From: Balneolaceae bacterium | GTDB taxonomy: Bacteria; Bacteroidota; Rhodothermia; Balneolales; Balneolaceae | Length of the DNA: 64,000 nucleotides | Assembly (NCBI GenBank): GCA_017795005.1 | Contig: CP051242.1 | Span: 496,001 to 560,000, forward strand | Direction of reading: 5' to 3' | Translations under genes and position numbers: made by a program | The notes under the pieces: model-generated | Told to the model about the DNA's origin: nothing | Database searches by the model: none | What the model saw: only the letters and a program-made list of their open reading frames with translations | Shown here: positions 57,381 to 61,671 of the stretch, in pieces | How positions within the stretch are numbered: position 1 is the first letter of the stretch | Layout: each line of letters opens with the position of its first letter

Positions 57381-60300
57381 ATGATTGATAAAGTAGGAAA
57401 GCTCATTACCAAAATATTTGGATCCAAGAGCGAAAAAGATATTAAATCCATCCAGCCAATTGTTGACGAAATTAAGTCATATGGTCCGGAAATGGAGAAA
57501 CTGAGTGATGATCAGCTAAAAGCTAAGACTGAAGGTTTCAGAAATCAGATTCAGGAAGCTACGAAAGATACAAGAGAGCGAATTGCCGAAGTAAAGAAAC
57601 AACTCGATAATATTGAAGACCTTTCGCCGGCTGAGCACCGGGATTTGGCGGACGAACTTGAAAAGCTTGAAAAAGAAGAGTTAGATATCATTGAAGATCA
57701 ACTCAATGACATATTGCCCGAAGCGTATGCGGTTCTTAAAGATACCTGCCGACGATTTGTCGGTAAAAGTTGGAAGGTTGCTGGCGACGAAGTAGAATGG
57801 AATATGATTCCTTATGATGTTCAGTTGGTGGGCGCTATTGTATTGCATCAGGGAAAAGTAGCTGAGATGAAAACTGGGGAAGGTAAAACACTGGTGGCAA
57901 CCTTCCCGGCATTTCTAAATTCCTTAGCCGGGAAAGGAGTTCATGTAATCACGGTTAACGACTATCTGGCTAAGCGTGATGCTGAATGGAATGAGCCGAT
58001 CTTTAATTTCCATGGCATCCATGTAGATTGTATTGACCGGTATCAGCCTAATACAGAACAGAGAAGAAAAGCATATCGTGCGGATATCACCTACGGAACC
58101 AATAACGAATTCGGCTTCGACTACCTTCGTGATAATATGGTAATTGGACAGGATCAACTTGTTCAAAAGGAACATCACTACACTATTATTGATGAGGTTG
58201 ATTCTATCTTAATTGATGAAGCCAGAACTCCTCTGATCATTTCAGGCCCGGTACCACACGACAACAAGTCTGATAAATACATTGAAATGAAACCAAGGGT
58301 TGAAGCTTTGGTAGCAGCTCAGAAAAAGCTCGTGGCGCAGTTAGTACAGGAAGGTCAAAAATATCTTGATGATGGAAATGAAGAACAAGCAGGGCTAGCT
58401 TTGTTCAGGGCTCAGCGTGGCTTCCCTAAAAATACTCGTTTCCGAAAAATGCTTCAGGAACCAAGTATTCAGAAATTAATTCAGAAAACAGAAGCATTTT
58501 ATCTGGCGGATAATGCTAAGAACATGCCTGTTGTTGATGAATATCTGTACTACGCGGTAGATATGAAGTTGAACTCTATTGAGATGACTGAAAAAGGGCG
58601 TGAGTTCGTCACCCAAAAAAATGAAGATCCGGAATTCTTCGTAATCCCTGATCTCGGTTTGGAGACATCAGAAATCGAAAAAGAAATTGAAGTTCTTGAG
58701 AAAGAGAAAGTAGATGCTGTTAAAGAGCTGGATTTAAGTGAAGACTATCAGGAAAAGAAAATTGACGAAGCGAAAGCGGAAGTTCGTCAGGAAAGAGAGA
58801 GCAAATTCAGTGAGCTACACCGATTATTTGCAGAACGTGGTGATCGTATCCACACTGTTAACCAGTTATTGAAGGCCTATACAAACTTCGAAAGGGAAGA
58901 AGAATATATCGTTCAGGATGGGAAAGTTCAGATTGTAGATGAACACACGGGACGTGTACTTTCAGGGCGTCGTTACTCTGATGGATTGCATCAGGCGATT
59001 GAAGCAAAAGAAAATGTAAAAGTGGAAGCTTCAACACAGACGTATGCAACCATTACTCTTCAGAACTATTTCAGAATGTATCACAAACTTTCGGGTATGA
59101 CAGGTACAGCTGAAACGGAAGAAGGGGAATTCAATGAAATTTATGAATTGGATGTAGTAGTGATTCCTACCAACAGGCCAATTCAGCGTGATGATAAAGA
59201 GGATCTGGTTTTCAAAACAAAGCGGGAAAAATTCAAAGCTGCGATTGATAAGATCGAAGAATACCATAAAAATGGACAGCCAGTTCTTGTAGGTACAACC
59301 AGTGTTGAAGTTTCTGAAACGATGAGCCGTATGCTTCAGAGAGCAGGAATTTCCCATAATGTATTGAATGCCAAGCAACACGCACGGGAAAGTGAAATCG
59401 TGAAACAGGCCGGACAACCGGGTGCAGTTACGGTTGCCACCAATATGGCGGGTCGTGGTACCGATATTAAGTTGGCTCCGGGGGTAAAAGAGAATGGTGG
59501 ATTAGCAATCCTCGGTACGGAAAGACACGAATCACGCCGAATCGATTTACAGCTTCGTGGTCGTTCAGGTAGACAGGGAGACCCCGGAGTATCTCAGTTT
59601 TTCGTATCGCTTGAAGATAAATTGATGTCATTATTTATGAGCGATCGAGTGGCAGGAGTAATGGATAAACTTAGCTTTGAAGAAGGCGAGGTTATTACGC
59701 ATCCATGGATAACCAAGTCGTTGGAAAGAGCCCAATCAAAAGTTGAGCAGAACAACTTCAGTATCAGAAAGCGTCAGCTGGAATATGATGATGTACTGAA
59801 TAATCAGCGTAATGTAATTTATGCCCGACGTAAACATGCTCTTTTGGGAGATCAACTTCGAACAGATATCCTTGGTATGCTCGAAGAGTTGGTTGAGGAT
59901 ATCGTAGCAGAACATGTGATGGCGGGAGATTATGAAGGACTTCATTCTGAAATCCTGAGGAATCTTGCAGTGGATGTGGACTTCGACGGAGAGAAATGGC
60001 GCCAGATGGGAGAAGATGATCTTGTTGAAATGATAATTGCCAGAGCTTTGGAGGTATACAAGCGAAAAGAAGAGATGATGGCAAAACCGCTTTATGAAGT
60101 AATGAAGCGAATCACAGAATCTAATCCGGATCGCCGACCTGATAAAGTACAGGTAATTTTTACAGATGGAATCCGAAGAATGCGTGTGGTTGTTGATGTA
60201 GATGCAGCGCTGGAAAATGAAGGACGAGAAGTAGCCAGAGCTCTGGAAAAGTCTGCCGTACTCTCCGTTATTGATGATAAATGGATGCAACACCTTCGTG

Positions 60301-60767
60301 AACTGGATTCAGTAAAGGAAGGTATCGGATTGAGATCATTTGCTCAGAAAGATCCTCTGCTGGAATATAAAAGGGAAGCATTTGATATGTTTAAGCAGCT
60401 TCTTGGAATGATCAATCAGGAAGCAATTTCACTAATCTGGAAATCTTTCCCCGAAGCACAGATGGGAGATAATCAGGTACAGCAAGCTCAACAGCAGAAA
60501 TCCAGGTTTGATACCAGCAAAATGCAAACCCAGCATGCTGATTCAACCGGAATGGGATTACAGGCGCCTGCTCAACCGGCGAATGGTAATCAACCACGTC
60601 CAGCAGGACCAAATGTGAAACGTAAGCCGGTTGAAGTTGCTGATGAACCTGGACGTAATGATCATGTAACTATACAGAATATGAGTACAGGGAACACAAA
60701 GGAACTCAAGTGGAAGCACGCCAAACGCTTAGTTGATGAAGAAGGCTGGGTGTTAGTTGAGAAATAG
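57381..60767 (+). CDS. secA: Preprotein translocase ATPase SecA
   Basis: A 1128-residue motor that drives proteins through SecYEG. Walker A is MKTGEGKTL (~164-171) and the second motif is IIDEVDSILIDEARTPLIIS. Further signatures are TNNEFGFDYLRDNM, MTGTAETE, TNMAGRGTDIKL and GTERHESRRIDLQLRGRSGR then QGDPG. A long helical, highly charged insertion spans ~245-470, as in Bacteroidetes-like SecA, making it about 200 residues longer than E. coli SecA. The C-terminus has a Gln/Pro-rich linker and lacks the CxC...CH zinc motif. It is divergent from rpmH. Confidence 0.97.
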   Translation: MIDKVGKLITKIFGSKSEKDIKSIQPIVDEIKSYGPEMEKLSDDQLKAKTEGFRNQIQEATKDTRERIAEVKKQLDNIEDLSPAEHRDLADELEKLEKEELDIIEDQLNDILPEAYAVLKDTCRRFVGKSWKVAGDEVEWNMIPYDVQLVGAIVLHQGKVAEMKTGEGKTLVATFPAFLNSLAGKGVHVITVNDYLAKRDAEWNEPIFNFHGIHVDCIDRYQPNTEQRRKAYRADITYGTNNEFGFDYLRDNMVIGQDQLVQKEHHYTIIDEVDSILIDEARTPLIISGPVPHDNKSDKYIEMKPRVEALVAAQKKLVAQLVQEGQKYLDDGNEEQAGLALFRAQRGFPKNTRFRKMLQEPSIQKLIQKTEAFYLADNAKNMPVVDEYLYYAVDMKLNSIEMTEKGREFVTQKNEDPEFFVIPDLGLETSEIEKEIEVLEKEKVDAVKELDLSEDYQEKKIDEAKAEVRQERESKFSELHRLFAERGDRIHTVNQLLKAYTNFEREEEYIVQDGKVQIVDEHTGRVLSGRRYSDGLHQAIEAKENVKVEASTQTYATITLQNYFRMYHKLSGMTGTAETEEGEFNEIYELDVVVIPTNRPIQRDDKEDLVFKTKREKFKAAIDKIEEYHKNGQPVLVGTTSVEVSETMSRMLQRAGISHNVLNAKQHARESEIVKQAGQPGAVTVATNMAGRGTDIKLAPGVKENGGLAILGTERHESRRIDLQLRGRSGRQGDPGVSQFFVSLEDKLMSLFMSDRVAGVMDKLSFEEGEVITHPWITKSLERAQSKVEQNNFSIRKRQLEYDDVLNNQRNVIYARRKHALLGDQLRTDILGMLEELVEDIVAEHVMAGDYEGLHSEILRNLAVDVDFDGEKWRQMGEDDLVEMIIARALEVYKRKEEMMAKPLYEVMKRITESNPDRRPDKVQVIFTDGIRRMRVVVDVDAALENEGREVARALEKSAVLSVIDDKWMQHLRELDSVKEGIGLRSFAQKDPLLEYKREAFDMFKQLLGMINQEAISLIWKSFPEAQMGDNQVQQAQQQKSRFDTSKMQTQHADSTGMGLQAPAQPANGNQPRPAGPNVKRKPVEVADEPGRNDHVTIQNMSTGNTKELKWKHAKRLVDEEGWVLVEK

Positions 60768-60790: not shown

Positions 60791-60826
60791 AACAGTAAGC
60801 GTGTTTCATGAAACGCACCTACTGTT
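60791..60826 (+). terminator. Probable terminator after secA
   Basis: AACAGTA (60791-60797) pairs with TACTGTT (60820-60826) around the inner palindrome GTTTCATGAAAC, followed by a T/C-rich tract. Confidence 0.55.
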
Positions 60827-60903
60827 GTTATTTCCTTTTCCTCCAAAAACTTAACATTGGATTTTGAGTTTCAATCCTTATCATTGGAGCCCATGTTAAG
60901 AAA

Positions 60904-61671
60904 TTGTTAAGTGATTCAGAATTAGTGGAAGTATTAGGTATCGATATTATTGGCAAAAGCATCAAAGGTGCAATCGTTGATACTGAAAAAGGAGAAATTG
61001 TATCCGGTAAAAAATCGACAGATACTGCAGAAGATTCCCGTCCTCATAAGCTTATCTCCAAAATTCATAAAGTAGTAAAGAAGTTCGACTGGAAGGGACC
61101 AGTAGGATGTTCATTTCCTGCGCCAACAAATAAAGGGATTATTCTTTCTGCAAACCGGATCAATTCGGCCTGGGTTGATGCCGATGCAGAACATCTATTC
61201 ACCGAAATTACCGGTTGTAATGTTAGCGTATTAAATCAGACGGATGCTACAGGTATCGCTGAGATGACTTTTGGAATTGGTAAGAAGGCATCTGGTACTG
61301 TAATCGTTTTGAATGTGGGGGATGGAATTGGCTCTTCTATTTTTGTGGACGGGAAATTAGTCCCGAATACGGAACTTGGTTTAATAGAAATAAAAGGGGT
61401 AAAAATTGAAGACCGGGCATCAAATTCCGCAAGAAAAGAAGAGGGTGTTGGAAAAAAGAACTGGGCAAAACGACTTCAGTTTGTACTTGAGCATTATGAA
61501 CACCTGTTCCATCCCGACATGTTTATTCTGGGAGGCCAGCTAAGCAAAAAGCCCGAAAAAGTGATGCCCTATATTAAAATAGGTACACGATTGAAATCTG
61601 CTGAGTTCGGGAGAGACGCAAGTATTGTTGGAGCGGCATACTATGCTGCCAAGAAGCAGGAACTGATTTAA
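60904..61671 (+). CDS. Polyphosphate-glucokinase-like ROK protein, probable pseudokinase
   Basis: A 255-residue protein homologous end to end to strictly polyphosphate/ATP glucokinases (GPVGCSFPAP, NSAWVDADAEHLFTEITGCN, LVPNTELG). Key motifs are altered. DIGG is DIIG (~14-17), the catalytic LNDAD is LNQTD (Asp replaced by Gln ~112), GTGIGS is GDGIGS (~139-144), and the sugar-binding ELGH is ELGL. An inactive regulator or a changed enzyme is likely. No ATG is available: TTG at 60904 or GTG at 60925 (MEVLGID, closer to the family start). It converges on the TPR gene with one base between stops. Confidence 0.82.
   Translation: MLSDSELVEVLGIDIIGKSIKGAIVDTEKGEIVSGKKSTDTAEDSRPHKLISKIHKVVKKFDWKGPVGCSFPAPTNKGIILSANRINSAWVDADAEHLFTEITGCNVSVLNQTDATGIAEMTFGIGKKASGTVIVLNVGDGIGSSIFVDGKLVPNTELGLIEIKGVKIEDRASNSARKEEGVGKKNWAKRLQFVLEHYEHLFHPDMFILGGQLSKKPEKVMPYIKIGTRLKSAEFGRDASIVGAAYYAAKKQELI

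Follow-up and report, generated by a model that had tools for sequence, protein, structure and literature searches.

A secA-linked polyphosphate-glucokinase homologue of Balneolaceae has lost its catalytic aspartate and is kept under purifying selection

Yeast Gal3 and the plant hexokinase-like proteins are sugar-kinase pseudoenzymes or sensors that were retained after catalysis had been lost, and most pseudoenzymes are encountered as isolated examples. The closest described systems for the gene treated here are the polyphosphate glucokinases (PPGK; structure 1woq, profile NF045942) and the ROK family (PF00480). For PPGK, no report of a pseudoenzyme was found in the open-access literature as covered by titles and the opening of abstracts, subscription journals lying outside this scope. 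The phosphate-1 and phosphate-2 motifs are named here as in PMC4252912.

The window, meaning the whole stretch of 64,000 nucleotides that was analysed, carries a PPGK-like gene directly downstream of an ORF that we take, from its sequence, to be secA.

57381..60767, plus strand: ORF taken to be secA, directly upstream of the PPGK-like gene, in a position conserved across the order
60925..61671, plus strand: gene of the PPGK-like pseudoenzyme, 248 amino acids with a GTG start, identified by profile matches, predicted structure and Foldseek

The first-pass annotation had placed this gene at 60904-61671. A TTG at 60904 does begin a plus-strand frame that stays open until the stop at 61671 (255 amino acids in the ORF listing and translation), and both frame and stop hold, while the start at TTG probably lies 21 bases too far upstream. 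GTG 60925 is the most probable start and would give the protein of 248 amino acids, because the family N-terminus [M/V/L]-E-V-L-G-I-D starts there and relatives have similar DNA around this site. In these, the start falls on residue 8 of the 255-residue frame; it is a GTG, TTG or ATG codon, with GAAGT next in the majority of the sequences compared. Residues of the window protein are numbered throughout with TTG 60904 as residue 1.

The claimed full-length alignment with PPGK proved correct, in that homology runs from end to end and the predicted fold is that of 1woq. The NF045942 score was 246.6 bits, below the cut-off of 250, whereas the score for the Pfam ROK domain (PF00480), the sole domain found, was 51.6 bits against a curated cut-off of 22.9. 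The sequence matched 1woq in the PDB, the polyphosphate/ATP-glucomannokinase of Arthrobacter, with an E value of 3.5e-47, and the predicted structure (pLDDT 94, pTM 0.91) had 1woq as its top Foldseek match, with a TM-score of 0.94 and an rmsd of 1.5. The Foldseek matches also included Mlc and the Listeria ROK repressor, and the sugar-binding domain is common to ROK repressors, as expected if the protein were a ROK-type transcription regulator responding to sugar. Such a role is highly improbable, as the 248 residues hold a ROK domain alone with no DNA-binding extension, and the top structural match is PPGK 1woq. The protein begins at the first ROK strand, with the N-terminal helix-turn-helix domain absent.

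Some PPGK match was present in 88 of 97 related genomes, and a resident copy like that of the window in 53 of 92 genomes of the same family (E at most 8.6e-83), the carriers being Balneolaceae that include, by named records, Gracilimonas, Balneola and Fodinibius/Aliifodinibius. From 105 protein rows, 20 that were identical to another were merged, among them the resident copy of G103 (the same as that of G045) and the second-type copy of G114 (kept as L103), and a tree was built on 86 distinct proteins. The tree falls into two groups, one of 59 resident rows and one of 27 rows that takes in 1woq, Saprospiraceae, an Anaerolineales and others. Within the 27-row group, the intact clade, the catalytic Asp and the His are each present in 27/27 and the phosphate-2 Thr in 26/27. 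In 53 of the 59 distinct resident relatives, the gene is preceded by secA on the same strand; secA was not found in the available flank of the other six, which in five of them is about 1.5 kb or less. By its place in the tree and its secA-linked position, the window gene is the resident PPGK orthologue of a Balneolaceae genome. Two genomes hold two intact second-type PPGKs each (G043, with L056, where they are adjacent, and G127, with L079/L080), and no resident secA-linked copy was found in either at the threshold used.

The residues in question are located as follows.

60943..60966, plus strand: phosphate-1 loop DIIGKSIK (DIGSYGIK in relatives, DVGGSGIK in intact PPGK), from the alignment
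61237..61239, plus strand: position of the catalytic Asp, CAG for Gln, from the alignment
61318..61332, plus strand: phosphate-2 loop GDGIG replacing GTGIG, from the alignment; Asp or Glu is found there also in G026 and G011
61372..61383, plus strand: glucose motif ELGL replacing ELGH, from the alignment; a family-wide change, unlinked to the loss of the Asp
61531..61548, plus strand: GGQLSK replacing GGGISK, from the alignment; a family-wide change

The window protein departs from the PPGK motifs DxGG, GTGIG and ExGH and lacks the catalytic Asp of NDAD (connect-1). All four substitutions read in the first-pass annotation are present in the alignment: DIGG to DIIG (G16I), the catalytic Asp of LNDAD to Gln (D112Q, codon CAG at 61237-61239), GTGIG to GDGIG (T140D, codon GAT at 61321-61323) and ELGH to ELGL (H160L, codon TTA at 61381-61383). 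Their interpretation as a simultaneous loss of four sites was mistaken, since the His, like the second DIGG Gly, had already gone in copies that keep the Asp. Among the 46 Asp-keeping resident copies of Balneolaceae, the second Gly is found in none, DIGG having already become DIGSYG family-wide, the His of ExGH in just two (missing from 44), and GGQ stands in place of GGG in 44. With the His in only 2/46 Asp-keeping relatives, the change to Leu is uninformative on catalysis; in LmNanK, a ROK kinase of known structure, this position holds Tyr (PMC5458393). G16I, G19S, D112Q and T140D alone are new in the lineage of the window. We also note that the Asp-keeping Balneolaceae copies share DIGSY, ExGL/Q and GGQ, and these live copies may themselves have changed their sugar or donor.

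A compensating Asp, proposed earlier as a point to check, was found neither in the alignment nor in the model. The only Asp nearby is D114 (LNQTD), two residues further along the same helix, and we rejected it as a new base because live and dead copies share it without exception. Asn111, Glu157, Lys21, Trp90 and Trp187 are retained in the window protein. Lys21 would be the equivalent of Lys25, a residue discussed as a phosphate contact in the portion of PMC4252912 that deals with it.

As a reference set, we used 101 positions that are near-invariant among the 46 Asp-keeping relatives. The window protein differs at six of them (G16I, G19S, A70S, D112Q, T140D and N237R), and four of the six, G16, G19, D112 and T140, are phosphate-loop or catalytic positions. 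When clustering was tested with the Asp left out, as it defines the group, 11 phosphate-loop positions stood among the remaining 100, and 3/5 changes of the window protein fell on them (p 0.009; this and the following p values are uncorrected). The corresponding figures were 3/5 in G001 (p 0.009), 5/11 in G026 (p 0.002), 5/12 in G011 (p 0.003) and 8/38 in G058 (p 0.015), and clustering was weak in two lineages, with 3/11 in G056 (p 0.10) and 2/7 in G002 (p 0.17). Damaged loops were also seen in four Asp-keeping copies from genomes that have no second PPGK: L074 (G100), L038 (G051), L040 (G016) and L033 (G007) show 4, 2, 2 and 1 altered phosphate-loop positions, respectively, with changes such as GTGIG to GAEIG. 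Judged from these loops, the four are probably further cases of lost or changed activity.

Conservation was also counted over 52 resident copies, with retention asked of five of the six dead copies, G056 being left out. We found 81 positions conserved over these 52 copies including the five dead ones, and in the intact clade 16 of the 81 are rare or missing. The clade-specific residues kept in the five dead copies include H48, K49, H55, D92, H203, Q212, K225 and K231, and H48, K49, H55, D92 and H203 are found in at least 83% of six outgroups from the order. Because these outgroups keep the catalytic Asp and share these residues, the resident lineage had conserved residues of its own before catalysis was lost.

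The catalytic Asp is missing from 7 of the 59 distinct resident relatives, and the open frame is intact in all seven. The replacing residue is Gln in G000 (the window genome) and G001, Lys in G002, Ala in G026 and G011, Asn in G056 and Gly in G058; G000, G001 and G002 are all three genomes examined of the window's genus. Since the loss is found in all three with every frame open, a sequencing error or frameshift as its source was excluded. Asp is kept in 46 of 52 Balneolaceae resident copies, a count from which L049 of G058 was left out, although it is included in the 59 and in the seven. By parsimony over the 59 rows, on a tree made without the motif columns, the loss amounts to four changes. 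When the seven Asp-less rows were set against four Asp-keeping rows with a second PPGK, well-supported branches forced at least three losses. In an AU test that placed the five nearest dead copies in one clade, the gene tree did not reject a single clade (p 0.087), whereas separate losses are supported by G035, which keeps the Asp although its genus (g10) is also that of G026 and G011. At position 140, Thr was replaced by Asp in three genomes (G000, G001 and G026) and by Glu in a fourth (G011), which makes two separate changes on the tree. As a separate observation, L049 of G058 sits on an extremely long branch (2.45) and has 39/101 conserved positions changed, with an open frame, a secA-linked position and an intact second PPGK; it has perhaps undergone true decay or taken on a new function. 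The loss of the Asp is real, is not due to chance, and goes beyond an accident of one species, and the window protein is best read as a pseudoenzyme within the PPGK/ROK family.

The window genome has a second PPGK at G000:C1:575902-576627 on the minus strand, about 19 kb away, with all motifs intact and about 40% identical to the resident copy. Also present in the genome are a gene for a polyphosphate kinase (PF02503) and ROK-family genes that are longer. Protein identity between G000 and G001 is 90.3% for the dead copies and 81.1% for the intact second copies, and between G026 and G011 the values are 93.8% and 84.9%; the gap is small for G000-G002 (75.0% against 74.6%) and G001-G002 (77.8% against 75.8%). 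For comparison, local matches of the neighbouring genes between G000 and G001 were 97% for the presumed secA, 68% for what we take to be a TPR protein and 83% for a presumably glyoxalase-like protein. The dead copies of G000 and G001 have identities of 0.915, 0.968 and 0.468 at codon positions 1, 2 and 3, the third being saturated. As synonymous sites were saturated for NG86/YN00 on most pairs, a pairwise codon model was fitted; its dS is approximate, and the upper bound is the best guide to omega. For the dead copies, omega was 0.013 in G000-G001 and 0.0075 in G026-G011, with upper 95% bounds of about 0.027 and 0.021 and 2dlnL against omega = 1 of 350 and 357, respectively; for the intact copies of the same pairs, omega was 0.018 and 0.029.

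These values bear on the possibility that a redundant copy is becoming a pseudogene after the second PPGK took over, as might be suspected from the loss of the Asp in 6/10 genomes with a second PPGK and 1/49 without. The codon analysis excludes pseudogene decay in the window's genus; in addition, the frames of the seven Asp-less copies are intact while third codon positions are saturated, and conservation is higher in the dead copy than in the intact one. We regard decay as an extremely unlikely account of this gene, although G058 may be one real case of it. The earlier suggestion that the copy has lost catalysis and is kept by selection is well supported by omega, by conservation across three species of the genus and by the parallel losses in other lineages, where the remainder of the protein is conserved. 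Two marks of a pseudoenzyme, loss of the catalytic residues in a homologue of an enzyme and retention under purifying selection, are thus seen in the window protein.

The same 6/10 and 1/49 give a Fisher p of 3e-5 for Asp loss against presence of a second PPGK, a figure that ignores kinship. When independent pairs were drawn in 200 random sets, presence of the second copy went in the same direction as the loss in 1.8 of 4 pairs on average and in the opposite direction in none; the remaining pairs did not differ in the second copy, and this design cannot reach significance. There is thus a hint that Asp loss is associated with a second PPGK. The link is a loose one because loops are damaged in G100, G051, G016 and G007, which have no second PPGK. 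G056 has lost the Asp in the absence of a second PPGK as well.

Upstream of the gene, two further elements were recognised.

60857..60886, plus strand: promoter-like stretch TTG ... TATCATTG (TATGTTTG in relatives), conserved before eight copies
60896..60910, plus strand: near-palindrome TTAAGAAATTGTTAA, 14 bases before the GTG, a possible operator, from the upstream alignment

The first of these may be a promoter of the Bacteroidota type. An inverted repeat noticed by eye at 60791-60826, just past the secA stop, could be the secA terminator, in which case the window gene would need a promoter of its own. The G130 row of the upstream alignment is disregarded, because the stretch is coding there and not intergenic. 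TTAAGAAATTGTTAA is found at 13/15 matches or better before the resident copies of G000, G001, G002, G014, G035, G042, G026 and G011, that is, before the window gene and L002, L003, L004, L005, L020, L026 and L029. The carriers are 8/9 Balneolaceae genomes with both PPGK types, the ninth being G012. At the same threshold the element was found before no resident copy that lacks a second PPGK, and it was not found before the second PPGK copies. This distribution hints that the resident copy may be separately regulated where a second PPGK exists, with seven of the eight carriers being related. We dropped TTAAGAAATTGTTAA as the mark of a regulon, as there was one other match in the genome, before no PPGK gene; a half site combined with GTG was matched 6 times, no more than chance given 5 matches in the control.

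The upstream element also bears on whether the protein could be a regulatory partner of the intact PPGK, for instance as a subunit of a heterodimer or as a decoy for glucose or polyphosphate, which would be a special case of the explanation preferred below. The polyphosphate glucokinase of Methylomonas is a dimer according to the part of PMC6406325 that describes it, and TTAAGAAATTGTTAA before the resident copy in 8/9 two-PPGK genomes would couple its regulation to the presence of the second copy. Against such a partnership stand the identity of about 40% between the two copies, the loss of the Asp in G056 with no second PPGK, and the lack of the element before the second copy, and we consider it very unlikely. 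A broader version, in which Balneolaceae would have a two-protein system with a former enzyme repeatedly turned into a non-catalytic regulator of glucose or polyphosphate use, acting beside an intact PPGK from its own promoter and operator, is speculative and rather improbable.

The explanation we prefer, and hold to be probable, is that the secA-linked resident PPGK has become a pseudoenzyme, with phosphoryl transfer lost in the window's genus and the protein kept for a non-catalytic function older than the loss. The family would probably have taken on this function while still catalytic; catalysis would then have become dispensable, mostly where a second intact PPGK was present, after which the catalytic residues would have been lost and the remainder would have stayed under strict selection. 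Phosphoryl transfer would have been lost through the change of Asp to Gln, a bulky residue in phosphate-1 and an acidic residue in phosphate-2. In other sugar kinases, replacing the Asp by Ala or Asn leaves little or no activity, as reported in PMC10465942, and because of this effect in relatives of the fold, together with the bulky and acidic loop residues, the window protein is predicted to be inactive in phosphoryl transfer. Most likely it works through binding, with a ROK fold that would contact a partner protein or hold a ligand without turnover.

The first-pass annotation had left the choice between a non-catalytic role and a changed chemistry; retention after loss of catalysis is well supported, and nothing favours the other. 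If the protein were still an enzyme, it might have a changed chemistry or donor, use another residue as base, or catalyse some other reaction with a sugar or phosphate compound as substrate. Compatible with this are the confidently predicted fold, almost the same as that of 1woq, the retained Asn111, Glu157, Lys21, Trp90 and Trp187, and purifying selection as strong as that on live copies; selection read from sequence cannot tell catalysis from another function, and a changed enzyme would look alike. Moreover, GGG to GGQ, GG to GS and His to Leu/Gln predate the loss of the Asp, so that the family had already drifted from standard PPGK. The replacing residue varies by lineage (Q, K, A, N, G), though, which is hardly to be expected of a new catalytic group; the acidic residues in both loops of G026/G011 and in one loop of the window protein should repel phosphate; and the Asp to Ala/Asn mutants of other fold members described in PMC10465942 are dead. 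We therefore judge a surviving enzyme unlikely. The more specific suggestion of polyphosphate or sugar sensing found no particular support, as the phosphate loops are the most altered part and two of the sugar contacts of ROK kinases, Asp and His, are gone. Glucose sensing by the window protein would be possible, with Asn111 and Glu157 kept and two sugar contacts gone, and polyphosphate sensing would be less likely given the loops, though Lys21 is kept.

In place of a single case, the order offers one secA-linked locus with catalytic, half-eroded and dead copies in a series of related species, most of the dead copies being accompanied by an intact paralogue. It is a natural experiment in which the live and dead copies of neighbouring genera can show whether the non-catalytic function preceded the loss. 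Annotation as PPGK by homology can mis-assign such genes, the window protein being just 3.4 bits under the cut-off.

Compared with PPGK (1woq; NF045942), the window protein has the same fold, length and end-to-end alignment, and it is an orthologue of motif-keeping copies by tree and secA-linked position, but it differs in the catalytic Asp, the phosphate-1, phosphate-2 and glucose motifs, and a score under 250. Compared with the ROK family (PF00480), it lies above the curated cut-off, but it has neither the zinc motif, nor a DNA-binding domain, nor the catalytic Asp; the zinc motif is also missing from the polyphosphate glucokinases of methanotrophs, as stated in the portion of PMC6406325 concerned with them. 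Finally, whereas Gal3 and the hexokinase-like proteins are eukaryotic and have known roles, the present case is a bacterial ROK/PPGK protein with repeated loss at one conserved locus.
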